Shown here one piece after another: positions 11,969 through 35,729 of a stretch of 40,350 bases of DNA. Source of the stretch: Comamonadaceae bacterium (lineage in GTDB: Bacteria > Pseudomonadota > Gammaproteobacteria > Burkholderiales > Burkholderiaceae_C); contig CANGEG010000002.1 of NCBI GenBank assembly GCA_947452725.1, positions 1 through 40,350 on the forward strand. Reading direction: 5' to 3'. The notes below the pieces were generated by a model. The model was not told the DNA's origin, searched no databases, and saw only the letters and a program-made list of their open reading frames with translations. A program made the translations under genes and the position numbers. Position 1 is the first letter of the stretch, and each line of letters starts with the position of its first letter.

Positions 11969-12244
11969 TTGCGCTGTATTCGATCTGGCGGCACCATTGC
12001 CATGATTGGCATTCTTTCTGGCAGCGGTTTGGCGACTTCGCTGGGACACATCATCACGTGTCAGGTGCGCCTGCAGGGAGTGACCATAGGACATCGCGAT
12101 GGCTTTGAAGCCATGCTGCGAGCCATGGGCCAATACAAAGTTGAACCCGTGGCCGACAGGATTTTTGGGTTTGAGGAACTGAAGGAGGCCATGGCCCACC
12201 TCAAGAGCGGCGCCCAATTTGGCAAAGTCTGCCTGGCGCATTGA
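11969..12244 (+). pseudogene. C-terminal remnant of a zinc-type alcohol dehydrogenase
   Basis: RCIRSGGTIAMIGILSGSG...HRDGFEAMLRAMGQYKVEPVADRIFGFEELKEAMAHLKSGAQFGKVCLAH is the C-terminal third only; no matching N-terminal part upstream. Confidence 0.8.
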
Positions 12245-12271
12245 ATTCTTAATAATTCCCAAGGGACTTTC

Positions 12272-13791
12272 ATGCTTTTCCCGATTGATGGCAATCCAAA
12301 TGACCCTTCCCGTCTGGCATTTCAAATGTCTGAAACCGGAAAAAAAGGTCAGCTTCGGGCAGTTGGATGCGCGGACCAATCAGGTAGCGCAGATACTGCG
12401 TTCGTGTGGCGTGGGACCGGTCGAATATGTGGCCATGCTCATGACCAATCAGCGCCAATTTTTGGAGGCCTGTTTTGGAATGGACCGCGCCGGGGTCTAA
12501 TACACCACCATTAGCACGCGACTGAAATGAGAAGAGGTGGCCTACATTGTCAAAGATTGTTCTGCCAAGGTGCTGGTGGTCTCCGATGAATTGAAGGAAA
12601 TTTGCGCACCGCTGCGCGCGATGCTGCCAGCGAACTTCAGGTGTTTCACCCTTGGACAGGACATACATGGGGATGAGAGCTGGGATGCCGTCTTGGAAAG
12701 CGCTTCAGTGCTGCCCATTTCAGATTAATTAGGGCTTGGACATGCTGTTTTCGTCCAGCACTACAGGCCAGCCTAAGGGTGTCAAGTGGCAGATGATGCG
12801 GGCTTCCGCTGGCCACCGCACGGTGCTTGTCAACTTGCTGAAGCCTTTGTTTGGCTATGGAAGAAATAGTCGCTACCTGTCGGCTGCTCCGCTTTATCAC
12901 TCAGCGCCACTGCATGACGGTTATCAAGCACGGGGGTTCCGTTTGGGTGATGGCCAGCTTTGTCGCCCAGCAAGCGCTGGCGCTGATCGAAGCTCAGCGC
13001 ATTACCCGCAGCCGATGGGTGCCGACCATGTTTGTGCGACAGCTGAAATTGCCAGCTCAGGTCAGGTCCCAATATGACGTGTCCTCACTTCAGGTGGTGT
13101 CGCACGCGGCGGCGCCTTGTACGGTGCAGGTCAAAGATAAAATCCTGGCTTGGTGGCGTCCCATCATTTTTGAGTATTACGCCGGTACCGAAAACAACGG
13201 CTTTTCACAATCACCTTTGCCGAGTGGGGGGATCAAAAAGGCTCAGTGGGTAGAGCTACCCAAGGTCAAATGTATATTTCTGACGAGTCCGGCGAGGTGC
13301 TACCTGCGGGTGAAACCGGTTTGGTGTACTTCTCTGATGGTCCGATCTTCACTTGCCACAACGACCCTGAACGATCAGCCCAGGCGCGCAATGCCAGCGG
13401 TTGAACGCCGTTGGGGGATATCGGGCGTGTAGACGAAGAGGGATACTTATATTTGTTGGGCCGTCGAGCGTTTATGATCATTTCAGGTGGGGTCAATATT
13501 TACCCCCAAGAGGCTGAAAGCATCCTGATTGGACATCCAAAGGTTTTGGATGTTGCGGACATAGGTGTCCCAAATGAGGACTTTGGAGAAGAAGTCAAGG
13601 CGGTCGTCCAGCCAGTGAATCCCCAGGACATTGGGCCTGCTTTGGCCGATGAACTGATTGCTTACTGCAATCAAAGCTTAGCTTCATTCAAATGTCCAAG
13701 AACGATTGACTTTGATCTTGAGCTGCCACGACATGCAACAGGCAAGCTTTTTAAGAAGCTTGTTAGAGATAGGTACTGGGGCCCAGCTTAA
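12272..13791 (+). pseudogene. AMP-dependent acyl-CoA synthetase/ligase, multiply frameshifted
   Basis: Ordered ligase fragments in changing frames: VSFGQLDARTNQVAQILRSCGVGP, FSSSTTGQPKGVKWQ, IIFEYYAGTENNGF, GDIGRVDEEGYLYLLGRRAFMIISGGVNIYPQEAE, LPRHATGKLFKKLVRDRYW; a stop interrupts the section at 13390-13412. Confidence 0.93.
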
Positions 13792-13942: not shown

Positions 13943-14317
13943 ATGAACAAGCCTAGTGAACCCTTAGTTGACGGGGCACCAGTGCGCCGTTTTAAGAATC
14001 CCAACTACCAAAATGTGGCCTCGAATTTGGCCGAGCTTAGGCAAAAAATTGACCTGCTTGATACACAGATCATTGAACTCTTGGCCCAGCGCGCGCAGTG
14101 TGTGAAAGATGCCACAAGATTTAAAAAAGACGCTTTTCAAGTGGCAGCCCCAGCCCGTCAGGCTCAGGTTTTTGCACGTGTGAAATCACAGGCGAAAGCA
14201 CACGAAGAATATTTCCCCAATTTCCCCGAGATTGTAGAAGCAGCATATCGAACCTTGGTCGCAGGCTTTATTGCATCTGAGCAGCATCTTTTTCAAGAGA
14301 CAGAGATCATTAAATAA
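13943..14317 (+). CDS. Chorismate mutase type II / isochorismate-pyruvate lyase (PchB-like) family protein
   Basis: LRQKIDLLDTQIIELLAQRAQCVKDATRFKKD..APARQAQVFARVK keeps the AroQ-fold Arg/Arg/Lys pattern. Confidence 0.85.
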   Translation: MNKPSEPLVDGAPVRRFKNPNYQNVASNLAELRQKIDLLDTQIIELLAQRAQCVKDATRFKKDAFQVAAPARQAQVFARVKSQAKAHEEYFPNFPEIVEAAYRTLVAGFIASEQHLFQETEIIK

Positions 14318-15315
14318 TGAAATTACTTAAATCACCCTCAATCCTCCGTCGTAATTTTTTTCTCGTCCTTTGCGTGGGTTTTTTCTTGCCCGCGACAAGC
14401 GTTTGGGCTCAGCAAGCTTGGCCGAACAAGCCCATTAAATTGGTTGTTCCCTATGGTCCCGGCTCTTCCCCAGATGTGATCGCACGGATCGTTGCAGAAA
14501 AGTTATCTCCACGGTTGGGTCAACCCGTCATCATTGAAAACCGTGTCGGCGCGGGCGGCAACACTGGCTCTGGCGTAGTGGCTAAATCAGCCGGAGATGG
14601 CTACACATTTTTGATAAGCACCAATGGCCCCTTGGTCTACAACACGGTACTGTATAAAAAGCTCACCTACGACCCATTCACCGAATTGCGGCCCGTGGTA
14701 TTGGCCGGCGGACAGTCCAATGTTTGCGCTGTAAGGACAGACTCAGGGATCAATTCCTTGGCCGATTTGATTCAGGCGATGAAGAAAAATCCGGGCAAAT
14801 TTAACTTTTCATCGACCGGTATTGGTAGCCTGTCACAACTCGGTGTTGAATTGCTCAAGGTCAAAACAGAGACTTTTGCAGTTCATATTCCGTACGTCTC
14901 TTCGCCGCTGGCGATCATGGCCATTTTGCAAGGTGATGTGCAGTTTGCCTGCGTACCTGCAGTCGCCGTCTTGCCGCAAGTTAAAGCAGGAAAAATGCGC
15001 GCTTTAGCTGTTTCAACCGCCAAGAGAAGTCAGTTTCTGCCAGATGTACCAACTATGAAAGAGGCCGGTTTGAGTGGCATTGAAAGCGTAGCTTGGATGG
15101 CGATCATGGCCCCGGCAACCACACCCAACGATATCGTGTCGCGGATGAATCAAGAGATCAACGCCGTTCTTGGGCTGCCAGAAGTTAAAGAAAAATTGTA
15201 CTCACAGTATATGGAGCCCATTGGCGGTACCGAACAGGAGCTCAAGAAATTCATGCAGCAAGAGTTGCAGGTCATGACGCCAGTGATAAAGCGCACAGGC
15301 TTAAGCATCGAATGA
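14317..15315 (+). CDS. Bug/TctC-family tripartite tricarboxylate transporter substrate-binding protein
   Basis: Signal peptide, WPNKPIKLVVPYGPGSSPDVIARIVAEKLSPRLGQPVIIENRVGAGG; start overlaps upstream stop (TAATG). Confidence 0.93.
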   Translation: MKLLKSPSILRRNFFLVLCVGFFLPATSVWAQQAWPNKPIKLVVPYGPGSSPDVIARIVAEKLSPRLGQPVIIENRVGAGGNTGSGVVAKSAGDGYTFLISTNGPLVYNTVLYKKLTYDPFTELRPVVLAGGQSNVCAVRTDSGINSLADLIQAMKKNPGKFNFSSTGIGSLSQLGVELLKVKTETFAVHIPYVSSPLAIMAILQGDVQFACVPAVAVLPQVKAGKMRALAVSTAKRSQFLPDVPTMKEAGLSGIESVAWMAIMAPATTPNDIVSRMNQEINAVLGLPEVKEKLYSQYMEPIGGTEQELKKFMQQELQVMTPVIKRTGLSIE

Positions 15316-15330
15316 TGGGCGGAAGCCAAA

Positions 15331-17265
15331 GTGCTTGAAATTCAATTTGACACTCGACTCGCCACGCAAGCGGAGGTCGACTCACAAATCGCGACTCTTG
15401 AACAAAATGCAGGAATTTATTTCGGAGTTGACGCCGGCATTGAAGGCCTTCATCCCCTGCAAGCAACTTTACTTTCGCAACCGGATCTCGCTTTTCATTT
15501 GTACAGTGATGGCATTGTTTTGAAATGCTTGACGCACTGGGGCGCCGCCTTAGTCGCGATCAAAGACATTGCCCATTGGCAAATTGAAGCAGCCCGAGGC
15601 GCTGGCCAAACTGTTCAAGCGTCGCTGCGCTCCTTTCTGGCTTGTTTTACGGCATCCCCAGATGTCATGTTGATCGGTGCATTGCCATTTGATGCGCACC
15701 GTTTGACTTTGCCCACGGACTTTGCTGAGTCTTTGGGCGTCGTTTTTTTTGGCCGTCACCTACTGAGAAGAGATGGTACTGGCCAGTGGCGCAGAATTGA
15801 TTGGAATATTCTTGGGTCGCCAAGCTCAGTTCAGGCTGACGATCTAGCACCTGAGCCTAATGGATTCAGTGCATTGCGCTCGACCCAAACTGCTATCTCT
15901 GGCGACCCTCAGGATGACTCTGCACCTGGGGGATATGCTGACATGGTCAGTCGTGCCTTGGCCAGACTCAAAGACACTGCGCTGGTATCGCTCACCCTTA
16001 GTCAGACCTACCGCCGCCGCGTGAGCATGAAAAGCACGGAAGCATTTGCACGACTTCGCAAAGCCAATCCCGCACCGGCTTGTTTTTTCTTGAACAATGG
16101 TGAAGGGCTGCATTTGTTGGGGGCCTCTCCTGATTTGCAATTGATTGTTCAAGATCACAATGTGGTTTCTTTGCCCGTTTGCGGCACAGTTGCCAAAAGA
16201 ACGAGCCCTGTTGGTGAGTCGCTGTCTTTGCAAGAGCTGATTAATGAGGAGGTTGACGCTGCTTCGCTGGCAGTTTGTACTGATGCTTTAAGAAACGACT
16301 TGGCCCCCTTTTGTCGCCCCGGGACATTGAACCTCACCCATCGCCGCAAGCCCATGATGCTGGCCACGGTAGTTCATACAGTCGATCGCATTGAGGGCCA
16401 ACTGCTGGAGTCCTGCGATGCATGGGATGCTATCTTTGCCACTGCAGCGCCTGTGATGGTCACTGGCACGCCCAGGGCACAAGCACTGGCGGCAATTTCA
16501 GAATTTGAAATCAGTCCGCGGGGATGGTATGGAGGATTGGTGGTACAGGTCGCAAGCAATGGGGACGCATTAGCGGGAACTTTATTGCGCGCTGCTGCAG
16601 TGGAGGGCGGCATCGCACAAGTTCGAACTGGTGGCGACTTGATGGCCGACTCATCGCCAGATCGCGAAGAGCAAGAGTCGCGATTAAAAACCTTGTCTTT
16701 ATGGAGAGCATTTGGCTTAGAGACTTCGCCCCAAGTTCAATCTACCGCAATAAGCGGCTCTCACACGCCACACTCCATTTGCATGGTCGACTGTCAAGAT
16801 CCCTTTGGCGCGGCCGTGCGTGACTTTGTGTTGGGCTTGGGCATACGGTTGGATACTGCAGCGGGCACTCAGCTTTGGGTGGGGCCGCTTCCAAGTGCAA
16901 ATTGGCCAACGAAAAATTGCATTGCTATGGGTGATAGCGCCTATTTGTTGCTCAAGCATTCAGGCTTTGATGTTCAAGAAATGGCACCACTCAACGGCAG
17001 ACTGACGATTAACAGATTACGCGCAGGCGGCCCAAAAGAAATGCCTCTTGAATTCGTCACGGTCAATTACGCACAGTTTCAAATTCTAAATACCTCACCT
17101 CCCCCTGGTTGGTCAGTTTGGACTGAAGATGAAAACGGCATTGCCAGTGCATGGATACATGCGGAGAAGAAATTGGCTTGTTTGCTGTTTAGGCCTGACT
17201 CCATGATGTCGGATAAAAACACACATAAAGTTTTCCTGGAAGCCTTGTCATTCATCGCGCATTGA
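15331..17265 (+). CDS. TrpE(G)/PhzE-like chorismate-utilising enzyme fused to a degenerate glutamine amidotransferase domain
   Basis: PVCGT, CTDALRNDL, HTVDRIEGQL, VMVTGTPRAQALAAISEFE.SPRGWYGG, IAQVRTGGDLMADSSPDREEQES match Rhizobium-type TrpE(G); C-terminal part GATase-like without the catalytic motif. Confidence 0.82.
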   Translation: MLEIQFDTRLATQAEVDSQIATLEQNAGIYFGVDAGIEGLHPLQATLLSQPDLAFHLYSDGIVLKCLTHWGAALVAIKDIAHWQIEAARGAGQTVQASLRSFLACFTASPDVMLIGALPFDAHRLTLPTDFAESLGVVFFGRHLLRRDGTGQWRRIDWNILGSPSSVQADDLAPEPNGFSALRSTQTAISGDPQDDSAPGGYADMVSRALARLKDTALVSLTLSQTYRRRVSMKSTEAFARLRKANPAPACFFLNNGEGLHLLGASPDLQLIVQDHNVVSLPVCGTVAKRTSPVGESLSLQELINEEVDAASLAVCTDALRNDLAPFCRPGTLNLTHRRKPMMLATVVHTVDRIEGQLLESCDAWDAIFATAAPVMVTGTPRAQALAAISEFEISPRGWYGGLVVQVASNGDALAGTLLRAAAVEGGIAQVRTGGDLMADSSPDREEQESRLKTLSLWRAFGLETSPQVQSTAISGSHTPHSICMVDCQDPFGAAVRDFVLGLGIRLDTAAGTQLWVGPLPSANWPTKNCIAMGDSAYLLLKHSGFDVQEMAPLNGRLTINRLRAGGPKEMPLEFVTVNYAQFQILNTSPPPGWSVWTEDENGIASAWIHAEKKLACLLFRPDSMMSDKNTHKVFLEALSFIAH

Positions 17266-17303
17266 CCGTGCAAATTGCATACAAAAAATTAAGTCCCTTT
17301 TAA

Positions 17304-18674
17304 ATGACCGCCGATTCAAATTATCTTCAAGAACCCTCGCGTAAAGTTCCTATTTTTGGCAAATATGACGTGGTGGTTGTGGGCGGTGGTCCCGCCGGTA
17401 TCGCGGCCAGTCACAGCGCAGCCAAGCATGGCGCCCGTGTCCTATTGGTAGAAAAATATGGTTTTTTAGGCGGCATGGGTACAGCTGCTGGCGTAACAAA
17501 TTTTGCTGGCTTGTATGGATTGAAAGACGGCGTCATGCAGCAAGTTGTGCACGGAGTGGTTGACGAAATCTTAGAGCGCCTGGCGGCACTCGGTGGGCTC
17601 AATGATCCGCAAGACGGTATGCAAGGCCGAATTCGGGTTCGTTCATACGATGTTTCGGCTTACAAATGTGCTGCAGATCAGATGCTGGTTGACGCCGGTG
17701 TGCAAATTCTTTTTCATGCTTGGGCTGCGCAAGTGGTGATGGAAGGTGATCGCATAGAAGCTCTTATTGTGGAAACCAAGTCCGGCCGCCAAGCTATAGC
17801 CGCAAATTGTTTCATTGATTGTTCTGGTGATGCAGATGTCGCCTTCTTTGCCGGTGTGCCATTTGAAGTGGGCGATGGCCACGGCAGTGGGCTTTTCCCA
17901 ACGACGATGTTTAAAGTTGGCCACGTCGATGCCAGTCTTGCATTGCCTGTTGTGGGTCCATTTCAAGGCATTAACGATTGGATGGCTACAACGGAGAAAA
18001 ATAAGCCTGGTCAGTACAAGTTTCCAAGAGAGGGGGCCATCTTGCGACCCCAGCACAATCCAACTGAATGGCGCGTCAATGTGACGCAAATAAAAAATCA
18101 ATTTGGTTTAGCGATGGACGCTACCGATGCGCGTCAATTGAGCGCGGGGGAACTTGAGGGTAGAAAGCAAATCGCAGATTATTTCCATTTTTTGAAATCG
18201 GAAATACCAGGATTTGCGCAATCCTCCATCGTTGAAATTGCCCCACAAGTGGGTATTCGTGAAAGTCGGCGAATTCAGGGGCTTTACGCTTTAACAGGTC
18301 ACGACATATTGAGCTGCGCCAGGTTTGAGGACAGCATAGGGTTCAACGCATGGCCCATGGAAATGCATACTGCCGGTCGCATCGAATGGCGGTTTCCACA
18401 AAGTCCAAGCGGCCAAACAGTCCGTCTCTTTAATGATCTGCCTTGGCGAATTTTGGTCCCATCGCGAACAACCAATTTGTTGGTCGCGGGGAGGTGTGCG
18501 TCCATGACTCACGAAGGTCAGTCTGCTGCGCGCGTAAGCGGGGCCTGTTTTGTCATGGGGCAAGCTGCAGGTACAGCTGCAGCGTATCTGGGAGAGACTG
18601 AGTCCTTCGAAAACACTCACGTGCCTACGCTTAAGCGCAAGTTGATTCAGGATGGTTGCTATTTGGAAGATTGA
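17304..18674 (+). CDS. FAD-dependent oxidoreductase (FAD_oxidored type)
   Basis: YDVVVVGGGPAGIAASHSAAKHGARVLLVEKYGFLGGMGTAAGVTNF dinucleotide-binding start; C-terminal GRCASMTHEGQSAARVSGACFVMGQAAGTAAA. Confidence 0.92.
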   Translation: MTADSNYLQEPSRKVPIFGKYDVVVVGGGPAGIAASHSAAKHGARVLLVEKYGFLGGMGTAAGVTNFAGLYGLKDGVMQQVVHGVVDEILERLAALGGLNDPQDGMQGRIRVRSYDVSAYKCAADQMLVDAGVQILFHAWAAQVVMEGDRIEALIVETKSGRQAIAANCFIDCSGDADVAFFAGVPFEVGDGHGSGLFPTTMFKVGHVDASLALPVVGPFQGINDWMATTEKNKPGQYKFPREGAILRPQHNPTEWRVNVTQIKNQFGLAMDATDARQLSAGELEGRKQIADYFHFLKSEIPGFAQSSIVEIAPQVGIRESRRIQGLYALTGHDILSCARFEDSIGFNAWPMEMHTAGRIEWRFPQSPSGQTVRLFNDLPWRILVPSRTTNLLVAGRCASMTHEGQSAARVSGACFVMGQAAGTAAAYLGETESFENTHVPTLKRKLIQDGCYLED

Positions 18675-18941: not shown

Positions 18942-19574
18942 TTACCCGGCCAATTGTTCCCATGGTCTCGAATTTGAAACAGCTGCTTCGAATTGACTGA
19001 TCGCTTGCTCGTGAGTCAGGGTCGTCGACACTTCATCCGTGCCGTTTAACAACATGTCTTGCCTAAAAAGAGGCAGCGAAAAAGAAATTTCAAATCCCGA
19101 TGTGGTTTTAAGAGTGCAGTCAGTCAAATCCAATAAAAAATGTTCTTCACGCTGAGCCATAGCACTGAGCTTTTCGACGTCATTGCTTGGTAACACCAAT
19201 GGAAGCATATGGTTTCTGAAGCAATTGTCTTTAAAAATTAAACCAAAACTTGGCGCAATAATGCACCGAATACCAAAGGCTTGCAACATTGTTGCAGCAG
19301 TCTCACGTGAACTTCCGCAAGCAAAGTTATCACCAGCGATCAGGAATTTTGCTTGCCGGAATGGGCTTTTATTTAACACGAAGTCGGGATTTTCGTGTCC
19401 TTCTGTTGTGTAACGCCAAGGGCCAAAAAGCCGGTGAGCTAATTCCGACGAACTTCTAATGCCCACAGGTTGAAGTCCTTGGCCCGCTCTAACCAAGGGG
19501 GCAATCGTGTCAGTGTTGATATCTGACTTCATTAAAGAGGCCGCAATTCCATTCAATGTGACTAAAGCGGTCAT
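18942..19574 (-). CDS. LeuD-like hydro-lyase small subunit, divergent copy 1
   Basis: KSDINTDTIAP..., NFACGSSRETAA, IAPSFGLIFKDNCFRNHMLPL; ATG at 19574 overlaps the stop of the upstream LeuC-like gene (ATGA). Confidence 0.88.
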   Translation of the reverse strand: MTALVTLNGIAASLMKSDINTDTIAPLVRAGQGLQPVGIRSSSELAHRLFGPWRYTTEGHENPDFVLNKSPFRQAKFLIAGDNFACGSSRETAATMLQAFGIRCIIAPSFGLIFKDNCFRNHMLPLVLPSNDVEKLSAMAQREEHFLLDLTDCTLKTTSGFEISFSLPLFRQDMLLNGTDEVSTTLTHEQAISQFEAAVSNSRPWEQLAG

Positions 19575-20989
19575 GAATATGACTCCTGAAACATCACCTG
19601 AGTTGGATCTGCAATAAACCCGGCACATGCGGCAGCTGCAGCGACTGCAGGGGATGCGATGTGCGTTCGACTTCCAGGACCTTGCCGGCCTGCAAAATTG
19701 CGGTTCGCCGTAGAGATGGCGCGCTCTCCAGAGCCAATCGTTTCACCGTTTGCACTCAGGCACATGGAACAGCCTGGATTTCTCCATTCAAACCCAGCGG
19801 CCAAAAAGATCTTGTCGAGACCTTCTTGTTGGGCTTGCCTTTTAACCATTTCAGAGCCAGGCACAACCCAAGCCGTTACATGAGAGGCCACTTTGCGTCC
19901 TTTAACAATTGCTGAGGCCGCTCGTAAATCACTGATACGACTGTTGGTGCAAGACCCTATAAATACCCGGTGAACAGTTAACCCTAAGAGCCCAACGCCT
20001 TCCTGCAGGCCCATGTATGAGATGGCGGCTTGCATGTTGGCTCGGTGAGCTGGATCCATGGCGTTGTCTAAATATGGAATGGTTCCATCAATTGCGGTGA
20101 CCATATCCAAACTATTGCCCCAGGTGATTTGGGGTTTTAACCCAGTCACATTTAATGTGACTTCTTTGTCAAACACAGCATCGGTATCGGAAGCTAATGA
20201 ATGCCAATCTTCAAGGGCAGCGTCCCACTGCGCACCTTTAGGAGCATATGGACGGCCCTTGACGTAATCAAACGTAATTTGATCAGGGGCAATCATTCCA
20301 TACCTAGCGCCCCACTCGACGGACATATTGCACAAAGAAAATCTGGATTCCATAGGTAAACTTTCAATGGCAGAGCCAGCATACTCAACTGCAAAGCCAT
20401 TTCCCGCAGCAACCCCCAATTGTCCAATGATAAAAAGCACTAGATCTTTGCCCCCAATTCCAGGTGATACAGTGCCCTCAAGGTTAACGCGCATCGTTTT
20501 GGGTTTTTGTTGAACACAGGTCTGGGTAGCCAGAATGTGGACAATTTCACCTTGTCCCACCCCCCAAGCCAATGCGCCGAGGGCGCCATTCGTGCAAGTA
20601 TGACTGTCGCCAATAGTTACAGTTAAGCCAGGAAGAGCAATTCCCATTTCAGGTGTAATGACATGAACAATGCCATGACCAACTTGGCCAAGTTCAAAAT
20701 TCTTTACACCAAACTCTTGTGTTTCCTTGCGCAAATTTTGCACATGAGGATTCTGCATTTGAAGCAGATCAAGATTGTTGGGATCAGTCGAAACAGAATG
20801 ATCTGCCGATGCAAATGTCAACTTTGGTCTCCTAACCTTTAAGCCTCGGTCACGGAGTCGAGTAAAAGCACTGCCATTGAAATCAGGCACAACGTGGCGG
20901 TCTACATAGAGCAGGTGGAAGCCCTCGCCAAGATCAGCCACAACATGGCGATTCCAAATTTTGTTAAAAAGTGTTCCGTCAACTGACAT
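19571..20989 (-). CDS. LeuC-like hydro-lyase large subunit (aconitase family), copy 1
   Basis: VFIGSCTNSRISDLRAAS and NPGCSMCLSANGE cluster ligands; GERAISTANRNFAGRQGPGSRTHIASPAVAAAAA; internal Met at 20989 preferred. Confidence 0.92.
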   Translation of the reverse strand: MSVDGTLFNKIWNRHVVADLGEGFHLLYVDRHVVPDFNGSAFTRLRDRGLKVRRPKLTFASADHSVSTDPNNLDLLQMQNPHVQNLRKETQEFGVKNFELGQVGHGIVHVITPEMGIALPGLTVTIGDSHTCTNGALGALAWGVGQGEIVHILATQTCVQQKPKTMRVNLEGTVSPGIGGKDLVLFIIGQLGVAAGNGFAVEYAGSAIESLPMESRFSLCNMSVEWGARYGMIAPDQITFDYVKGRPYAPKGAQWDAALEDWHSLASDTDAVFDKEVTLNVTGLKPQITWGNSLDMVTAIDGTIPYLDNAMDPAHRANMQAAISYMGLQEGVGLLGLTVHRVFIGSCTNSRISDLRAASAIVKGRKVASHVTAWVVPGSEMVKRQAQQEGLDKIFLAAGFEWRNPGCSMCLSANGETIGSGERAISTANRNFAGRQGPGSRTHIASPAVAAAAACAGFIADPTQVMFQESYS

Positions 20990-21986
20990 TTGCGTTCGAT
21001 TCTTTGACTGCATTTTTCCAATGATTAACGTCAACTCTTATGGAGTGTGCAAAATCCAAAGGGCTTGAGGCAAGAATATCCATTGACTGACGATCAAGTT
21101 GAAGCTTGATTTCGGGATCAGCTAGAACTTTCAATATATCTGCATGTAAGCTTTTCAAAATTTCCGAAGGTAAGTTAGCCGGTGCAACTAAACCAAAAAT
21201 GCCGTCATAACTAAGGCCTTTGACTGTGTCGTCAAGAAGCGGTATTTGGGGAAATAATTTATTTTTTCTTCGATCACACAAAGCGATGACTTTAAGTTTC
21301 CCCGCCTTCACATGAGGTAACGCTGATTCCAGAACCACAAAACCCATCTGAACGCGACCAGGAAGTAGTTCTCTGTAGGCACCACTACTACCCGCGAAGG
21401 GGACGTGAATGATGTCAATTCCTGTCCTTTTGCGCAGCAACTCTCCCGTGATGTGGCCAGCTGTTCCAATACCTAAAGAAGCCCAAGATAAAGCTCCAGG
21501 CCTAGATTTCGCAAAATCAATCACCTCTTGCAGAGTATTAGCTTGCAGACTGGGATGCGCAACCAGGGCACTGGTTACGGTTCCAATTTGGGTTAGTGGC
21601 GTGAGGTCTTTGAACGTGTCATAGGGGAGGTCGTTGCGCAAACTTGGGTTGATGGTCAATGCGCTGATGACAACACCAAAAGTATGACCATCTGGGGTCG
21701 CCTGGGCAACGAACTGAGTTCCAAGTATGGTGCCCCCTCCTGGCTTATTTTCAACTATCACTGCTTGTCCCCAAAGGTCACTCAGTTTTTGAGCAATGGG
21801 GCGAATGATGGCGTCTGTTGCCCCGCCCGCTTGGAGTGGCGATATCAACTTAACGGGGTGAATGGGTTTAAATTGTCCAGCAGAGTTTTGTGCTTGAAGC
21901 GAAGGCAAAAACCCCGCTGAAAGCCCGCTGACTAAACCTCTAAAAATGTCCCGACGGCGTAATGTACCCATTCGTTTTCTCCTCAT
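20979..21986 (-). CDS. Bug/TctC-family substrate-binding protein
   Basis: HPVKLISPLQAGGATDAIIRPIAQKLSDLWGQAVIVENKPGGGT. Confidence 0.92.
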   Translation of the reverse strand: MRRKRMGTLRRRDIFRGLVSGLSAGFLPSLQAQNSAGQFKPIHPVKLISPLQAGGATDAIIRPIAQKLSDLWGQAVIVENKPGGGTILGTQFVAQATPDGHTFGVVISALTINPSLRNDLPYDTFKDLTPLTQIGTVTSALVAHPSLQANTLQEVIDFAKSRPGALSWASLGIGTAGHITGELLRKRTGIDIIHVPFAGSSGAYRELLPGRVQMGFVVLESALPHVKAGKLKVIALCDRRKNKLFPQIPLLDDTVKGLSYDGIFGLVAPANLPSEILKSLHADILKVLADPEIKLQLDRQSMDILASSPLDFAHSIRVDVNHWKNAVKESNANVS

Positions 21987-22164
21987 CGTGATTGATACGA
22001 AACTACGCCATTAGATAAAACATGACTTTGCATCTATCGACAGTGTCACTTTTACATCGTCCATGGAGCTGATGAAAGTTGACGTTTTTCTGGTCTAAAA
22101 TATTTTGAGAGGTCTTGGGTACCCAAAGCTTGTATGCCCATAAATCATTCAAGCTCTGAATTCA

Positions 22165-23217
22165 TCATCTCAATGCCATTGGTTCTCGTTCGTCTAAAAA
22201 GCCCACAATTTCTCGGAAAAACTGCATGCGATTTTTCTCCAACATGACTGTATGTGTCCCTTGTCCTAGCTCCACATAACGCTTGTAGGGGGTGTTGGTC
22301 AGGGCATTGAATACGCCTTGCGCTTGATAGATGGGCAAGTCGGCATCCCACTCAGCGTGAATGAGAAAAGTTGGCACCGTAATCTTGCCTGGCTCATACA
22401 TTGGTTTGTCGGCTTGCCAGTTGGTCATCACATCTTCAATTACACCGTTGGTCGCGCGAAGGTTGCCGGAGGAGCCTTTAGGATCAGTGGCCCACGTGGC
22501 ATCTGCCCACGCTTCAAATATTCCGGGGGGGATCAGGCCCTCGGCTTGCTGCGGTGTCAGTCCTTTAAGCCATCGAGACTTTGCGCTATCTTTGGAGACG
22601 TTTCTGTATGCGCCCAGTTTGACCGCGTTGGGACCTGTTGGTAATGCTGTTTCTTTTGCAAACAACCACATTGGCGCATAAAGGACAAGTCGATTGACCT
22701 TTGGGTTGTTCATGCTGGTGTACATACCAACAATTGAAGTGCCCCAAGACCAACCCATGATGTTGATCTTTGGTACGTTATGGCGTTTCAAAATGGCATC
22801 AACCGCTGAACCAAAATCACTTGCCGCATCCGCGGTATGAACGATAGGCGCATTGTCTTGAGCGGGCAAATCCATTTCTTTTGGACGCGTGGAAAGTCCA
22901 TAGCCTCGGACATCCACCAAGTAAACGTCATAGCCTTTGGCTGCAAACAGGTCCATCATGGATGCGCCTTCGATAGGTAAATCAAAAGCTGTCTCAGCTG
23001 GGTAAGTTGCGCCGTGTACAAAGAGCAAAATTTTGTCGGGTGAAGCAGCCTTTATTCCTGCCAGGTGTTTGTAGCGCATAAACAATTGAATGCCCGGCGC
23101 TTTTGATGGCACATAAAAGTCTTCGGACTCGATCTTGGGCGTCTGGGCAAATGCTGAAAAGCCCTGAAGTAGCAATGCAGCAATACTCAAGATTATTTTT
23201 TTGCTAAAAATTTTCAA
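22165..23217 (-). CDS. Periplasmic alpha/beta hydrolase
   Basis: Signal peptide ..SIAALLLQGFSAFAQ; FVHGATYPAE, DVRGYGLSTRP, IMGWSWGTS nucleophile elbow, C-terminal GQGTHTVMLE. Confidence 0.88.
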   Translation of the reverse strand: MKIFSKKIILSIAALLLQGFSAFAQTPKIESEDFYVPSKAPGIQLFMRYKHLAGIKAASPDKILLFVHGATYPAETAFDLPIEGASMMDLFAAKGYDVYLVDVRGYGLSTRPKEMDLPAQDNAPIVHTADAASDFGSAVDAILKRHNVPKINIMGWSWGTSIVGMYTSMNNPKVNRLVLYAPMWLFAKETALPTGPNAVKLGAYRNVSKDSAKSRWLKGLTPQQAEGLIPPGIFEAWADATWATDPKGSSGNLRATNGVIEDVMTNWQADKPMYEPGKITVPTFLIHAEWDADLPIYQAQGVFNALTNTPYKRYVELGQGTHTVMLEKNRMQFFREIVGFLDEREPMALR

Positions 23218-23285
23218 AGTTGTCTCCTGTTATCAAATGTGTTTTTTATGAGAGCGTGGAACTAGGGAGTTCACGACTGAAAGGT

Positions 23286-24365
23286 TCAATTTCGCAAATG
23301 AACAAGCGCCTGTACTACGGCCTCGCCCATTTCTTGGGTACCAACTCTCTCGCAACCAGGTTGATAGATGTCTCCGGTTCTCAATCCATCAGCCAGAACA
23401 CGCCGAACCGCGTGCTCAACTTGGGCGGCTAATTCAGACTGGTGAAAGCTCAGACGCAGCATCATTGCCATGGACAGGATGGAGGCTAATGGATTGGCTA
23501 AATTCTGACCCGCAATGTCGGGGGCTGTGCCATGCACGGGTTCATACAGCCCTTTATGGCCTGTAGACAAAGATGCCGAAGGTAGCATGCCAATAGAGCC
23601 GGTCAACATGGCCGCCGCGTCCGACAAAATGTCGCCAAAAATATTACCCGTAACCATCACGTCAAATTGTTTAGGTGCGCGCATCAATTGCATAGCTGCT
23701 GCATCTACGAAGAGGTGGCTGAGTTCAACATCGGGGTATTCACGCCCAACCTCAGTCATAACTTCGCGCCAAAGTTGCATGGTTTCCAAAACATTAGCCT
23801 TGTCCACCGAGCAAACTTTATGACTTCGCAATCGGGCTGTTTGAAATGCGACGTGACCAATTCTGCGAATTTCAGATTCGCTATAGCGCATGGTGTTGAA
23901 GGCTTCGCGTTCGCCATTTGGTAAAGTGCGAACACCTCTAGGTTCGCCAAAGTAGATATCACCCGTCAGTTCTCTGAGGATTATGATGTCCAAACCTTCA
24001 ACCACTTCAGGTTTGAGTGTGGATGCCCCAATCAGTTCCGGAAATAAAAAGGCAGGCCGAAAATTGGCAAATAGATTCAGTTGCTTTCTGAGTCTGAGCA
24101 AGCTCGCACCAGGGCGCATGTTGAACTCAATGGCTTCATCGCCAGGTACCCCCGCAGATCCAAACAAGATGGCCTCTGCTTTGTCGGCAATCTCGCGGGT
24201 TTGGAGAGGTAACGGATCACCTGCGGCATCAACACCGGCTTGACCAACCGGGGCGTAAACCAACTCCATCGGTAGATGATTTCCTACGACCGCTTTGAGG
24301 ACCTTGACGGCCTGATCCGTAACTTCTTGGCCGATACCGTCGCCGGGCATGACTGCAATTTTCAT
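23286..24365 (-). CDS. leuB: LeuB-like beta-decarboxylating dehydrogenase
   Basis: [69 protein letters not shown]. Confidence 0.9.
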
Positions 24366-24392
24366 GGTATTTAAGTTATATGAGTAAGTAAA

Positions 24393-24983
24393 TTAAGAAA
24401 GCTGCTTTCTTTCGAAAGCCTCAATTTGTGGGAGCAGGCTCAGTGTGTAGCCCAATTCATCGAGTCCTTCGAGAAAACATTGCTTGGAAAATTTATCGAT
24501 TTCGAAGGTGGCACTGAAATCAGAACTAGCCACAACTGTTTGCTCAGCCAGATCAATCACAACAATAGTTTCTGAATTTTGTTGGGTCAGGTTAAACAGA
24601 TGCAACACATCAGATGTGGAAAGTCTGATAGGGAGGAGCCCATTTTTTAGCGCATTATTGAAAAAAATATCACCAAAACTGGGGGCTATAACGGCGCGAA
24701 ATCCTCCGTCATAGATGGCCCACACTGCGTGCTCACGTGAGGATCCACAACCAAAATTTTCGTTCGCGAGCATGATTTGTGCTCCGACATACTTGGCCTG
24801 ATTCAGTACAAATTCGGGTCTTAATAAACCATTCCCATCGTTGCGAACATCTTGGAACAGGTAGTTGCCAAAGTTGTTGGCTCTGGTTTTTTGTAGATAT
24901 CTCGCTGGCAAAATTTGATCGGTGTCTATGTTGACCTTTTCCAATGGGAGCATCAAACTTTGAAGGGTTTTGAATTTTTCCAT
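24393..24983 (-). CDS. leuD: LeuD-like 3-isopropylmalate dehydratase small subunit, copy 2
   Basis: EKVNIDTDQILPARYLQKT, NENFGCGSSREHAVWAI, IAPSFGDIFFNNALKNGLLPI. Confidence 0.93.
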   Translation of the reverse strand: MEKFKTLQSLMLPLEKVNIDTDQILPARYLQKTRANNFGNYLFQDVRNDGNGLLRPEFVLNQAKYVGAQIMLANENFGCGSSREHAVWAIYDGGFRAVIAPSFGDIFFNNALKNGLLPIRLSTSDVLHLFNLTQQNSETIVVIDLAEQTVVASSDFSATFEIDKFSKQCFLEGLDELGYTLSLLPQIEAFERKQLS

Positions 24984-24993
24984 GATGAAGTTC

Positions 24994-26418
24994 TCAGATC
25001 AAATTGCGCACGTCGGTCAATCGACCCGTCACGGCAGCTGCGGCCGCCATAGCGGGGCTCAGTAGGTGAGTTCTGGAGCCCGGCCCCTGGCGACCCACAA
25101 AATTGCGATTGGATGTCGATGCACAGCGTTGTCCGGCTGGCACTTGGTCGCCATTGGTGCCTAAACACATTGAGCAACCGGGTTCTCGCCATTGAAATCC
25201 CGCGTTCAAGAAAATTTGATCAAGGCCTTCATTTTCGGCTTGGCGTTTCACCAACCCCGAGCCTGGCACTACCCATGCTTGCACTCCCTTGGCGACGTGT
25301 CGGTCTTTAGCAACCGCGGCAGCTGAGCGTAGATCTTCAATCCTGCCATTGGTGCACGACCCAATGAAAACGTGGTCAATTTGAATATCTATTAATTTTT
25401 GACCTGGAGTGAGGTCCATATACTGCAGTGCAGCTTCGATGGCTTGGCGTTTCACTGAGTTTGGGGCATCCTCGGGAAGGGGGACAATGCCATCAATAGG
25501 CAGAACATCTTCAGGACTATTTCCCCATGTCACCATCGGAGAAATCTCTTCTCCCCGCATTTGCACCACTTGGTTGTATACCGCCTCACTGTCGCTAAAC
25601 AGTTCACGCCACCGACCCAATGCAGCATCCCAGTCCGCGCCCTTTGGTGCAAATGGTTTGTCTTTGAGCCATTCAATCGTGTTTTCATCGGGGGCAATCA
25701 TGCCCGCACGCCCCCCCGCTTCGATGGACATGTTGCACACGGTCATGCGCTCTTGAATCGTCAGATTGCGAATAGTCTCGCCCGTGTATTCGATGACATG
25801 CCCCACTGCGCCGGCCGCACCGATTTTTCCGATAATGGCCAAAATGATGTCTTTGGCGGAAACGCCTATTCCTAATTTACCCTCAATGTTGATGCGCAGC
25901 GTCAGAGGTTTTCGTTGCCAAAGAGACTGTGTTGCAAGTACATGCGCAACTTCTGAGGCGCCAATGCCGAAGGCGAGTGCGCCAAATGCACCATGTGTGG
26001 CAGTATGACTATCGCCGCAGACAATCAACTGGCCCGGCTGACTCAGACCTTGTTCAGGTGCTATGACATGAATAATGCCTTGACGTGGATCCTGAAGGCC
26101 AAAATACGGAATGTGGTGTCTTTCGCAATCGTCCTCCAAAGCTTGCGCCATGGCTCTTTTTTCGGCGTCCGGGATCGTGTTCAAGTCACGCCCGAGGGTT
26201 GGGATGTAATGGTCCGGCGTGCCAAATGCCTTAGAGGGCACGCGCGCCACAAGCTGGCGTTGATGCAACATCTCAAAGGCGGGAGCAGATCCATCCTGTA
26301 TCAAATGACGGTCGATATAGAGAAGACTTGCGCCGTCGTCTCGTTCCATCACCACATGAGCGTTCCATATTTTTTCAAACAAGGTCAGTGCTTGCTTGAT
26401 TGATTTTGGTTTTTGCAT
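24994..26418 (-). CDS. leuC: LeuC-like 3-isopropylmalate dehydratase large subunit, copy 2
   Basis: VFIGSCTNGRIEDLRSAA, EPGCSMCLGTNGDQVPAGQRCASTSNRNFVGRQGPGSRTHLLSPAMAAAAAVTG. Confidence 0.94.
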   Translation of the reverse strand: MQKPKSIKQALTLFEKIWNAHVVMERDDGASLLYIDRHLIQDGSAPAFEMLHQRQLVARVPSKAFGTPDHYIPTLGRDLNTIPDAEKRAMAQALEDDCERHHIPYFGLQDPRQGIIHVIAPEQGLSQPGQLIVCGDSHTATHGAFGALAFGIGASEVAHVLATQSLWQRKPLTLRINIEGKLGIGVSAKDIILAIIGKIGAAGAVGHVIEYTGETIRNLTIQERMTVCNMSIEAGGRAGMIAPDENTIEWLKDKPFAPKGADWDAALGRWRELFSDSEAVYNQVVQMRGEEISPMVTWGNSPEDVLPIDGIVPLPEDAPNSVKRQAIEAALQYMDLTPGQKLIDIQIDHVFIGSCTNGRIEDLRSAAAVAKDRHVAKGVQAWVVPGSGLVKRQAENEGLDQIFLNAGFQWREPGCSMCLGTNGDQVPAGQRCASTSNRNFVGRQGPGSRTHLLSPAMAAAAAVTGRLTDVRNLI

Positions 26419-26421
26419 GTT

Positions 26422-27393
26422 TTACTCGAATTTAGCGCCAGACCGCTTCACGATATCGGCATATCGAGTGATTTCGGATTGAATGAAATTTGAAAATTCG
26501 GCCGGTGTGCCACCGCCAATTTCTGCACCTAAGTCATACATGCGTTTTTGTACTTCAGGCGAGTGCAATGCATCATTCAACTCAGCATTTAATTTGCTCA
26601 CGATGCTTGCAGGCATCCCGGCTGGGCCCATGAGTCCATACCAAGACGATGCATAGAGATCGGGTAGGCCTGCTTCATCTAATGTTGGCACGTTGGGCAG
26701 TACAGGATTGCGTTTTTTGGACATCACGCCCAGCGCCCTGAGTTTGCCTCCGGTGATGAAGGGAATGGCGGTGGCGGTATCAAACATTACCGAAATGTGA
26801 CCGGCCATCAAATCAGCCTCTGCTGGCGCTGTACCTTTGTATGGCACATGCATCATGTCAATTTTTGTAGAGCCCATGAACTGAACTGCAGCCAAATGCT
26901 GAGAAGACCCGACGCCTGCGGATCCATAAGTGACCTTACCCGGGTTGGCTTTTGCAAAATTGATCAAATCGGACACCGACTTGATCTGGGAGTTGACCGG
27001 AACAACCAAAAATATAGGAAGGGATGAAACAAACGTAATGGGTGTGAAGTCTTTGATCAGATCAAAAGGCAACTTGGGATAGAGGTGCACATTAATGGCG
27101 TTGGGCGTGATTGATCCCATCAATAAGTTGTAGCCGTCTGGTTTTGCACGTGCAGCGATATCGGTTCCGATGTTTCCTCCTGCACCAGCGCGGTTCTCAA
27201 TAACGATGGGTTGACCTAAGCGCTTGCCCAATGGCTCGGCGATCATTCGCGCAGTGGAGTCGACACCACCGCCAGCTGGCCAAGGCACCATCAGGCGAAT
27301 GGGCTGAGTCGGGTAGTTGGCGCTAGTTTGCGCTGATGCACCAACTGAAATCCAGAGCAAAGCCAAAATTGCAAAGGTATGTACTTTAATCAT
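26422..27393 (-). CDS. Bug/TctC-family substrate-binding protein
   Basis: YPTQPIRLMVPWPAGGGVDSTARMIAEPLGKRLGQPIVIENRAGAGGNIG; signal peptide from Met at 27393. Confidence 0.93.
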   Translation of the reverse strand: MIKVHTFAILALLWISVGASAQTSANYPTQPIRLMVPWPAGGGVDSTARMIAEPLGKRLGQPIVIENRAGAGGNIGTDIAARAKPDGYNLLMGSITPNAINVHLYPKLPFDLIKDFTPITFVSSLPIFLVVPVNSQIKSVSDLINFAKANPGKVTYGSAGVGSSQHLAAVQFMGSTKIDMMHVPYKGTAPAEADLMAGHISVMFDTATAIPFITGGKLRALGVMSKKRNPVLPNVPTLDEAGLPDLYASSWYGLMGPAGMPASIVSKLNAELNDALHSPEVQKRMYDLGAEIGGGTPAEFSNFIQSEITRYADIVKRSGAKFE

Positions 27394-27470
27394 CTCTTGT
27401 CTCCAACAGTATTTATCGTCCTTATTATTCATAAAACGAGCAATTATTCAATCGAAATAAACGCATAATA

Positions 27471-27500: not shown

Positions 27501-28394
27501 ATGAACCGCAAAATTCCCCCTTTAAATGCTTTGCGTGCTTTTGAAGCCGTGTCCCGCTTGGTGAGCTTTACCAAAGCCGCTGAAGAGCTGTGCGTGACGC
27601 AGGGGGCCGTTAGCCGACAAATCTCTAATTTAGAAGCGTGGCTTGGTTTGAAATTGTTTTCTAGAGGGCGACATACGATTGAGTTGACTCCGCAAGGGCA
27701 ATCCTATTTCGCGGCCATGCGCGACATTTTTGATGAAGTTGATCGTAGTACTCGGCAACTGATGCCCAGAAAAGATGATCGTCTCTTGCGTATCAAGCTT
27801 CCCCCAACATTTGCTATTCGCTGGCTGATGCCTCGTTTGGCAAGATTTCATGCCAAACACCCTGATACGGAAGTTCAAATAACAACATCCCATCAAAGGG
27901 TGAATTTCAAGACAGAAGATATTGATATCAGTATTCATTCTGAACTGGCCCCTCCACAACTACCTGGATTCAAGTTGTTGTTTGAGGAGACCTTGATTCC
28001 TGTGTGCTCACCTGGACTACTCAAAGGTAGCAAGCCGTTGAAGCAGCCAGATGATTTGATGTTTCATGATCGTTTATGTTCGATGAACCGCCCTCACGAT
28101 TGGTCAACTTGGTTGAAGGCAGCCAAGGTCGAATCCATTGATGCGCACGAAGGCCTTAAGTTTGAAAACGCGGCCCTGGCCTACCAGGCTGCTACCAATG
28201 GACTTGGAGTAATGATGGGATTGATGGCGTTTGTACAAGGTGATTTGGCCAGTGGTTTATTGGCTGCACCATTTGATTTGAGCGTTGCGACGAAAGGGGG
28301 TTATTACATTTCATTTTCAGATTCAAAAGAGAAAACACAAAAAATTGTTGAATTTGAAAATTGGCTTTTGCAAGAAATAAGTCCAACGCCTTAG
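27501..28394 (+). CDS. LysR-family transcriptional regulator (GcvA-like)
   Basis: IPPLNALRAFEAVSRLVSFTKAAEELCVTQGAVSRQISNLEAWLGLKLFSRGRHTIELTPQG HTH. Confidence 0.95.
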   Translation: MNRKIPPLNALRAFEAVSRLVSFTKAAEELCVTQGAVSRQISNLEAWLGLKLFSRGRHTIELTPQGQSYFAAMRDIFDEVDRSTRQLMPRKDDRLLRIKLPPTFAIRWLMPRLARFHAKHPDTEVQITTSHQRVNFKTEDIDISIHSELAPPQLPGFKLLFEETLIPVCSPGLLKGSKPLKQPDDLMFHDRLCSMNRPHDWSTWLKAAKVESIDAHEGLKFENAALAYQAATNGLGVMMGLMAFVQGDLASGLLAAPFDLSVATKGGYYISFSDSKEKTQKIVEFENWLLQEISPTP

Positions 28395-31541: not shown

Positions 31542-32456
31542 TCAAGCATTAAAGTTAAGCTTCAGCCCGGCTTCTGGCCATGGCATAGACACCAGTTGAC
31601 CCGTCTCACTTAAGGTGATGTAGGCCGTTTTCAAACCATCGCCGCCAAAGCAAATGTTCGTAACGTAACTGTCTGGGAATTTCACTTGGCGTAACAAGTC
31701 CCCTGCGGGCGAAATGACCGATATATGGCCTGTCATGAGCGTCGCCACACAGATGTTTCCGGACTCATCCAAGGCCAAGCTGTCAAACCTCTGAAATCCT
31801 GGAAGGCCGCATACCAAACGACCACCGTTTTGCGAAGGGAAGTCCAACTTCTTGATTTTTCCCGGTGCGATGACATCGAACGCCCAAAGTCGGGAGGTCT
31901 CAGTTTCAGCCACATAGAGAATTAGGCCATCTGGGGATAAGCCTACGCCATTGGGAGCTTGAATCGGATAGACCAACTCGCTGATAAAAGAGCCATCTGC
32001 TAACGCATAGTAGAGGCCACCGTGGTCACGAGATCTTGCGCGTTTTTTGCCGAAGTCGGTAAAGTAAAAACCACCGTTCTTGTCAAAGACCAAGTCATTG
32101 GGCGCGCTGAGCCGATGGCCTTGACAGGAATCGTACAAAGTCTCAGTCACACCGGTGTGCCAATTCACTTTTTGAATGCTGCCCCCTTCGTAATTGAGCG
32201 CAGGGCCGGATGACGTGAAATGGCCTTGCGCGTAGTTGTTGCCCCCGTTGTTACAGACATACAAAGCGCCGTCTGGGCCTATCGCAGCCCCATTCGGACC
32301 ACCGCCACAGTCTGCCACGATGCTGAGTTCGCCGTTCGCGCTTACGCGGCGAATCAGACCCGCCCTCATTTCTACAAAGATGACGGAGCCATCCTGCATA
32401 GCCACGGGGCCTTCCGGAAAGAGCAGACCTTCGGCAAGTTTTTTCAAGATTTGCAT
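31542..32456 (-). CDS. SMP-30/gluconolactonase/LRE-family protein
   Basis: AEGLLFPEGPVAMQDGSVIFVEMRAGLIRRV, GPNGAAIGPDGALYVCNNGG, SAPNDLVFDKNGGFYFTDFG, QAPNGVGLSPDGLILYVAET. Confidence 0.9.
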   Translation of the reverse strand: MQILKKLAEGLLFPEGPVAMQDGSVIFVEMRAGLIRRVSANGELSIVADCGGGPNGAAIGPDGALYVCNNGGNNYAQGHFTSSGPALNYEGGSIQKVNWHTGVTETLYDSCQGHRLSAPNDLVFDKNGGFYFTDFGKKRARSRDHGGLYYALADGSFISELVYPIQAPNGVGLSPDGLILYVAETETSRLWAFDVIAPGKIKKLDFPSQNGGRLVCGLPGFQRFDSLALDESGNICVATLMTGHISVISPAGDLLRQVKFPDSYVTNICFGGDGLKTAYITLSETGQLVSMPWPEAGLKLNFNA

Positions 32457-32520
32457 CGCTTTGTGTATGACCTTGTGGACACGGCTGAAAATTTCAACCA
32501 AAGCCACATGAGTTAATTGC

Positions 32521-32551
32521 AATAAGATATGAATTAAATTAATGTCTTATT
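32521..32551. promoter_or_regulatory. 31-nt imperfect palindrome upstream of the SMP-30 operon; candidate operator
   Basis: AATAAGATATGAATTAAATTAATGTCTTATT; outer arms AATAAGA/TCTTATT perfect, inner part nearly symmetric. Confidence 0.45.
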
Positions 32552-34757: not shown

Positions 34758-35729
34758 TCAAGTGTCTAAATGGATACCCCTCGCCTTGGCCAGCGAGGTC
34801 CAGCGTGCGATGTCTTTCTTCATGTATGCGCCAAACTCTGCCGGTTTCATGGGCATTAACTCCACCGCTTCGGCGCTTAGTTTGTCTTTGAAGTCAGGCT
34901 GAGCCAGCACCACGGCCATGGCGTCGTTGAGTGTTTTGACGATTGACGCCGGCATATTGGCCGGTCCAACCACGCCGTACCACTGCTGTGCGTCAAAGCC
35001 TTTCAACCCGGCTTCTTCTAAAGTGGGTACGTCTTTGAGTTGGGGGTGGCGCTGGCTGCCGGTGACCGCCAAAGCTCGAATGCGGCCGCCGCGAATGTGC
35101 GGCAGTGCAGCGGCCAGCCCCGGGAACATCATTTGCGTTTGTCCGCCAATCAAATCGGTGATCGCCGGGGCAATGCCGCGGTAAGGGATGTGCACCAAAA
35201 AGCTGTTGGTTTGCAGCTTGAACAATTCAGCCGTCAAATGCGTAAGTGAGCCCGCACCGGCCGAGCCGTAAGACAGCTTGCCGGGGTTTTGCTTCATGTA
35301 AGCCAAAAAGGCTTGGATGTTTTGTGGCGGTAAAGCTGTGTTAATGACCAGCACATTGGGCGTGGAGCCGATCATGCCAATCGGTGTGAAATCGGCCAGC
35401 GCATCATAGGGTAGCTTGCGCGTGGCCGGTGCCGTACCGTGCGTAGCCACATAGCCTTGCATCAGGGTATAGCCGTCGGGCGCGGCGCGGGCGGTGGTTT
35501 GCGCTGCAATGACGCCGCCGCCGCCGCCCAGGTTGTCCACTACCATGGGCTGGCCGATCACCCGGCCCAAGCGGTCACACAGGGCCCGACCCACCATGTC
35601 GGAGCCACCACCGGCGGCTACCGGCACGATATATTTAACGGGTTTGTTCGGGTAACCGCTTTGTGCCATGGCCCATTCTGGCAGGCCCAACAGGGCAGGG
35701 CTGGCTTGGAGCAGGGTGCGGCGTTTCAT
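34758..35729 (-). CDS. Bug/TctC-family substrate-binding protein
   Basis: [47 protein letters not shown]; signal peptide. Confidence 0.93.

Follow-up and report, generated by a model that had tools for sequence, protein, structure and literature searches.

Two LeuCD-type modules with solute-binding proteins, proposed to be catabolic, on an acquired island of a Comamonadaceae bacterium

Gene content of the locus

The stretch of DNA analysed here (the window, 40,350 nucleotides) is the whole of contig C2 of a Comamonadaceae metagenome-assembled genome, which has 276 contigs and is 81% complete. Our subject is a minus-strand cluster carrying two LeuC/LeuD-like pairs, one LeuB-like gene and two genes for Bug solute-binding proteins. 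All coordinates are window positions, and curated NCBIfam cut-offs were used for LeuC, LeuD and LeuB. In order of transcription the genes are BugC-LeuC2-LeuD2-LeuB-hydrolase-BugB-LeuC1-LeuD1, all intact, with a divergent LysR gene. The gene order, the two distinct LeuC/LeuD pairs with LeuB and the lack of leuA within the window, all proposed in a first-pass annotation, were confirmed. BugC and the LysR gene, both just beyond the range covered there (18942-26418), belong to the unit.

The LysR protein (27501-28394, plus strand) is a GcvA-type regulator scoring 312.6 bits with NF008352, above the cut-off. On the minus strand, BugC (26422-27432), identified by phmmer as a binding protein of the tripartite tricarboxylate transporter (TTT) type, is followed by LeuC2 (24994-26418), the large subunit of a LeuCD-type [4Fe-4S] isomerase, by its small subunit LeuD2 (24393-24983) and by a LeuB-type beta-decarboxylating dehydrogenase (23286-24365). 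An exported alpha/beta hydrolase (22165-23217, PF00561) separates this set from the second, which consists of the TTT-type protein BugB (20979-21986) and the large and small subunits of a second LeuCD-type enzyme, LeuC1 (19571-20989) and LeuD1 (18942-19574). The starts of the last two were refined by comparison with orthologues. The LeuC1 open reading frame extends over 19571-21034, and its start was moved to 20989 (MSVDGTLF...); that of LeuD1 extends over 18942-19628, and its start was moved to 19574 (MTALVTL...). With these starts BugB and LeuC1 overlap by 11 bp and LeuC1 and LeuD1 by 4 bp (ATGA), which suggests translational coupling.

With the LeuC profile (TIGR00170) LeuC2 scores 672 bits and LeuC1 592 bits against a cut-off of 560, LeuB scores 449 bits against 353, and LeuD2 and LeuD1 both exceed the LeuD cut-off. 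The two LeuC proteins are only 48% identical and are therefore distinct, not the result of a recent duplication. The cysteines ligating the Fe-S cluster and the motifs GDSHT, GSCTN and GCxMC are intact in both. A comparison of the window with three close relatives gave ratios of nonsynonymous to synonymous substitution (dN/dS) of 0.04-0.11 for LeuC1, LeuD1 and BugB; this strong purifying selection rules out a decayed LeuCD1 pair, a state that would have spoken against the earlier interpretation.

BugB and BugC are both homologous to solved Bug/TctC proteins. The phmmer matches of BugC include the terephthalate-binding protein TBP (3.5e-75, the closest among solved structures), Bug27 and BugD. 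TTT binding proteins other than Bug27 are reported to bind dicarboxylic acids only (PMC8556258).

Two separate modules in relatives

Orthologues of LeuC1 (65-90%) were found at ten loci of Comamonadaceae-type bacteria. BugB lies directly upstream in all ten, LeuD1 lies downstream wherever the sequence reaches (L020 ends before that point), and neither LeuB nor LeuC2 stands alongside in any of them. A UTRA/GntR-type gene is found beside the module at L022, L024 and L128, called by a Pfam scan for the L022 protein and by sequence similarity for the other two. At L018 (6391-12084) the module directly follows LigA, LigB and a 4-hydroxybenzoate-3-monooxygenase-like gene, and at L017 and L019 it comes after a Rieske oxygenase, a TauD dioxygenase and another Bug. 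A role of LeuCD1 in the protocatechuate 4,5 pathway, considered from the L018 neighbours, is not supported by the other loci.

Orthologues of LeuC2 (66-71%) come in two arrangements: LysR|Bug-LeuC-LeuD-LeuB, present in Variovorax paradoxus VAI-C and in the genomes G098 and G216, and LysR|LeuC-LeuD-LeuB-MFS, present in Paraburkholderia PREW-6R, where an MFS transporter replaces Bug. A LysR protein 51-61% identical to that of the window is encoded at the equivalent place at four loci (L122, L126, L127, L123), and a BugC orthologue (61-68%) adjoins LeuC2 at the first three. Both modules are rare: among other sampled genomes of the family, a LeuC1 orthologue was present in 1 of 200 and a LeuC2 orthologue in 2 of 300, and a search of 369 genomes across the class gave no further LeuC1 relative above 53%. 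Homologues of the window hydrolase (81-82%) were found in two genomes, there without leuCD neighbours.

Bug-LeuC1-LeuD1 (module B) and LysR|Bug-LeuC2-LeuD2-LeuB (module A) are thus two modules, unlinked in every relative found. The first-pass annotation had joined them in one pathway with two isomerase/hydratase steps and one oxidative decarboxylation. Because the modules occur apart in all these relatives, a single seven-gene pathway is rejected as the default.

Relation to leucine biosynthesis

A leuA gene above its cut-off is encoded on contig C109 of the same genome, and a canonical leuC lies on contig C1 directly after sdh genes and gltA; the window cluster is therefore neither the sole nor the main leu locus. 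In a maximum likelihood tree of 58 LeuC sequences, burkholderial and actinobacterial canonical LeuC proteins form one clade (support 100/100). Both window LeuCs fall outside it, and LeuC2 groups with LeuB-linked catabolic LeuCs in a clade of its own (98/98). The window set has the families, catalytic motifs, Fe-S cysteines and gene order leuC-leuD-leuB in common with the LeuCDB of leucine biosynthesis. It differs from it in having no leuA or gltA neighbour, in the position of LeuC in the tree, in the replaced LeuD loop and LeuB Glu (see below) and in the attached regulator and binding protein. Judged from the separate leuA and leuC, the tree and the altered loops, leucine biosynthesis is rejected as the role of the window genes, and on this point the earlier annotation holds.

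Specificity elements in LeuB and LeuD

The LeuB substrate loop (RPEQAILGLRK) carries a Glu in each of the 28 canonical sequences compared. Gly takes its place in the window LeuB, in the four module orthologues without exception and in Caballeronia sp. NK8, with the following Leu-Leu retained. In our alignment this Glu corresponds to Glu88 of the Acidithiobacillus enzyme (1a05). The LeuD loop is clade-specific. It is PKQFLKS in canonical LeuD and PARFLQKPR in the LeuD2 clade (the window LeuD2 has PARYLQKTRANNFG in place of PKQFLKSIKRTGFG), IRIERL in a clade of lyase-linked LeuDs, and APLVR followed by an insertion of 8-9 residues in the LeuD1 clade (APLVRAGQGLQPVGIRSSSELAHRLF in LeuD1). Neither the canonical PKQFLKS loop of LeuD nor the RPEQ loop of LeuB occurs in LeuD1, LeuD2, LeuB or their clades.

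Because the LeuD loops and the LeuB Glu are changed, the substrates of LeuCD1 and of LeuCD2/LeuB are suggested to be two different compounds, neither of them isopropylmalate. Retention of the Leu-Leu pocket with loss of the Glu suggests that the module A substrate carries a hydrophobic side chain unlike isopropyl, perhaps a bulkier one.

An acquired genomic island

Both modules lie within 7623-34757, a segment of about 27.1 kb with a GC content of 49.8%, compared with 57% in the flanks. The bmp gene ending at 7622 and the BugE gene ending at 34758 are adjacent in six genomes of the same genus (G667, G671, G672, G674, G675, G678), where they are tens to a few hundred bp apart as opposed to 27.1 kb in the window (relatives at this site are loci L191-L195, L197 and L198). 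In G680, the closest congener, the same site is occupied by another cargo of 2.6 kb, with a Bug gene and a FAD-dependent aromatic-hydroxylase-like gene, named by eye. From the empty site, the lower GC content and the different cargo we conclude that the two modules belong to an acquired island and that its site takes different catabolic cargo (an insertion hotspot). No integrase was recognised on the island, and no tRNA or clear repeats were found at its ends, where repeats were sought within each end and not across both. A mis-binned contig is rejected as an explanation, since two flanking genes have syntenic counterparts in the same genus, at 86% identity for the M16 peptidase and 92% for the DEAD helicase.

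Two further observations concern the left part of the island. On the plus strand at 13943-18674, genes for an isochorismate-lyase/chorismate-mutase-like protein, a Bug, a TrpE/PhzE-like chorismate-binding protein (with no amidotransferase match to Pfam in its C-terminal part) and a PF12831 FAD oxidoreductase are clustered, an unusual combination of chorismate enzymes with a binding protein. At about 12000-13791, pieces of an apparent acyl-CoA ligase gene lie in different frames (the last at 13411-13791), apparently a broken gene.

Proposed functions and alternatives

Our interpretation, to which we give a probability of about three in four, is that the island carries two separate catabolic modules side by side. 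Module A would import a 2-substituted malate, isomerise it and decarboxylate it oxidatively; module B would hydrate or isomerise another diacid. The direction of flux, the import and the reactions of both modules are what we infer from sequence. In module A, BugC would capture a periplasmic dicarboxylate and deliver it to a TctAB permease whose genes lie elsewhere. LeuC2D2 would then move the hydroxyl group of the 2-substituted malate to the neighbouring carbon via an unsaturated acid (a 2-substituted maleate), and LeuB would oxidise and decarboxylate the resulting 3-substituted malate, with a 2-oxo acid, CO2 and NADH as products. Module B would be an uptake-coupled hydratase/isomerase for a different diacid; as it has no linked cleaving enzyme, its product is suggested to be accepted by general enzymes encoded elsewhere. 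Catabolism of an imported acid, linked to binding proteins, was also the earlier annotation's reading, and the conservation of regulator and Bug with LeuCDB agrees with it.

Several points weigh against this interpretation. Canonical leuD and leuB genes were not seen in the assembly and are deduced from the contig break and a congener: leuC is cut off at the end of C1, and in G088 the order sdhAB-gltA-leuC-leuD-leuB is contiguous, so that the two genes are most simply missing through an assembly gap. The second canonical leuCDB sought in this genome was accordingly found as far as leuC, its leuD and leuB being taken from G088 only; even so, the window set is not the only leu locus. LeuC2, LeuD2 and LeuB exceed the leucine-family cut-offs, which on sequence is compatible with leucine-type activity. 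Gaps as short as those between the modules (68 and 178 bp) would allow a single transcript, and hence co-expression of both in this strain. Finally, no TctAB permease is encoded beside the Bugs or elsewhere in the window; with TctA genes on contigs C5 and C171, BugB and BugC are orphan binding proteins.

A narrower form of our proposal, which we regard as unlikely without dismissing it, is that LeuC1D1 is a maleate hydratase of the HbzIJ type giving D-malate. Maleate to D-malate fits module B because a TTC-type D-malate/tartrate dehydrogenase, above its cut-off and encoded on contig C145, could finish the route, and because a Bug-LeuCD operon standing alone requires its product to be a substrate of core enzymes. 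HbzIJ, the maleate hydratase of the gentisate pathway of Pseudomonas alcaligenes, is a LeuCD-like enzyme acting in catabolism, and the window likewise encodes LeuC/LeuD-like heterodimeric subunits with Fe-S cysteines. However, no gentisate-pathway genes were recognised by eye among the window open reading frames, of which only some were covered by family-library scans. The link of the LeuC1 sister clade to methylisocitrate-lyase-like enzymes, moreover, suggests larger acids. A specific maleate hydratase in the gentisate pathway is attributed to Liu et al. 2015, as cited in PMC12294151.

A single pathway, with all seven genes serving one imported compound, is improbable. LeuC1D1 and LeuC2D2 would then catalyse successive steps, LeuB would decarboxylate, and the exported hydrolase would free the acid from an ester. 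The co-directional genes with short gaps, the lack of promoter- or terminator-like sites in excess of shuffled sequences, the signal-peptide-like N-terminus of the hydrolase and the Bug in each module are in keeping with this. Nevertheless, the modules are never together elsewhere, GntR genes stand beside LeuC1 modules and LysR genes beside LeuC2 modules, the hydrolase has homologues without leuCD, and the wider gap of 178 bp lies ahead of BugB.

Slightly less probable again is that module A is a redundant leucine locus (or one for isoleucine by the citramalate route) with BugC incidental. Its scores above the leuB, leuC and leuD cut-offs would fit, whereas the separate leuA and canonical leuC, the non-canonical phylogeny and loops and the conserved LysR|Bug linkage all argue otherwise. 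The HphBCD-like side pathway making a homologated amino acid, which the first-pass annotation had offered as an option, has a very remote chance: HphABCD phenylalanine homologation shares LeuABCD-type chemistry on non-leucine side chains and the LeuB pocket change could fit a larger one, but the window set is linked to uptake proteins and catabolic neighbours, and HphA (2-benzylmalate synthase, LeuA-like) is absent from the window, the genome showing one true leuA and one partial match of 37.6 bits only.

Comparison with other LeuCD systems

LeuCD genes of the sister clade of LeuC1 sit with methylisocitrate-lyase-like enzymes (closest to TIGR02317, below its cut-off), with a PrpF/oxalomesaconate-tautomerase-like isomerase, or with a pair of HMG-CoA-lyase and CoA-transferase. 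The lyase-linked sets, LeuCD with an enzyme of the methylisocitrate-lyase/PEP-mutase family (Variovorax, Methylobacterium and others), share a GntR-type regulator with LeuC1 modules, and several also have a Bug; the window module differs in having no adjacent lyase and in the extra loop insertion of LeuD1. A more distant LeuCD, in Skermanella, lies between a complete Bug-TctB-TctA transporter upstream and a methylisocitrate-lyase-like enzyme downstream. These contexts indicate that LeuCD-type isomerases in catabolic operons have repeatedly been combined with various transporters and C-C cleaving enzymes. DmdAB with dimethylmalate lyase, in nicotinate fermentation, is a comparable system.

A cluster on plasmid pNK83 of Caballeronia sp. 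NK8 (L131) shares leuC-leuD-leuB, a transporter, an SMP-30 gene and the LeuB Gly for Glu with the window. It differs in having an ABC transporter instead of Bug and extra SDR and FAH genes, the order being leuCDB, then ABC transporter, SDR, FAH-family and SMP-30 genes. Its SMP-30 protein is 59% identical to the SMP-30/gluconolactonase-like protein of the window (31542-32522, minus strand, PF08450), which hints that the GMC-YciI-Bug-SMP30 cluster of the window may be functionally linked to module A.

Two other loci were noted. L016 (G000:C4:10000-20000) has a HacA/DmdB-type LeuCD pair of 430 and 162 aa, with a Bug and branched-chain-type ABC transporter genes on one side and a hydantoinase-B-like gene on the other. 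L150 (G000:C263), where a tartrate-dehydrogenase-like gene, a Bug and a glycerate-kinase-like gene follow one another, resembles a tartrate utilisation operon.

Implications

The components of the modules are of known kinds, and the uptake-coupled LeuCDB module appears to be undescribed; no papers on catabolic LeuCDB with Bug proteins were found in a search covering part of the literature. Tentatively, and at somewhat less than an even chance, we propose that LysR|Bug-LeuC-LeuD-LeuB is an undescribed, horizontally spread catabolic route for imported 2-alkyl- or 2-aryl-malates, with a complete leucine-type pair of isomerase and dehydrogenase. If this is true, the chain-elongation chemistry of leucine has been recruited as a degradation pathway. 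Since such genes pass the curated cut-offs, automatic annotation names them leuB, leuC and leuD, by which catabolic pathways are hidden and metabolic models acquire a leucine pathway that is false or duplicated. The clade-specific LeuD and LeuB loops, together with a linked regulator and binding protein, would offer a way to recognise catabolic LeuCD(B) sets, and binding assays on the Bug proteins a route to their substrates.

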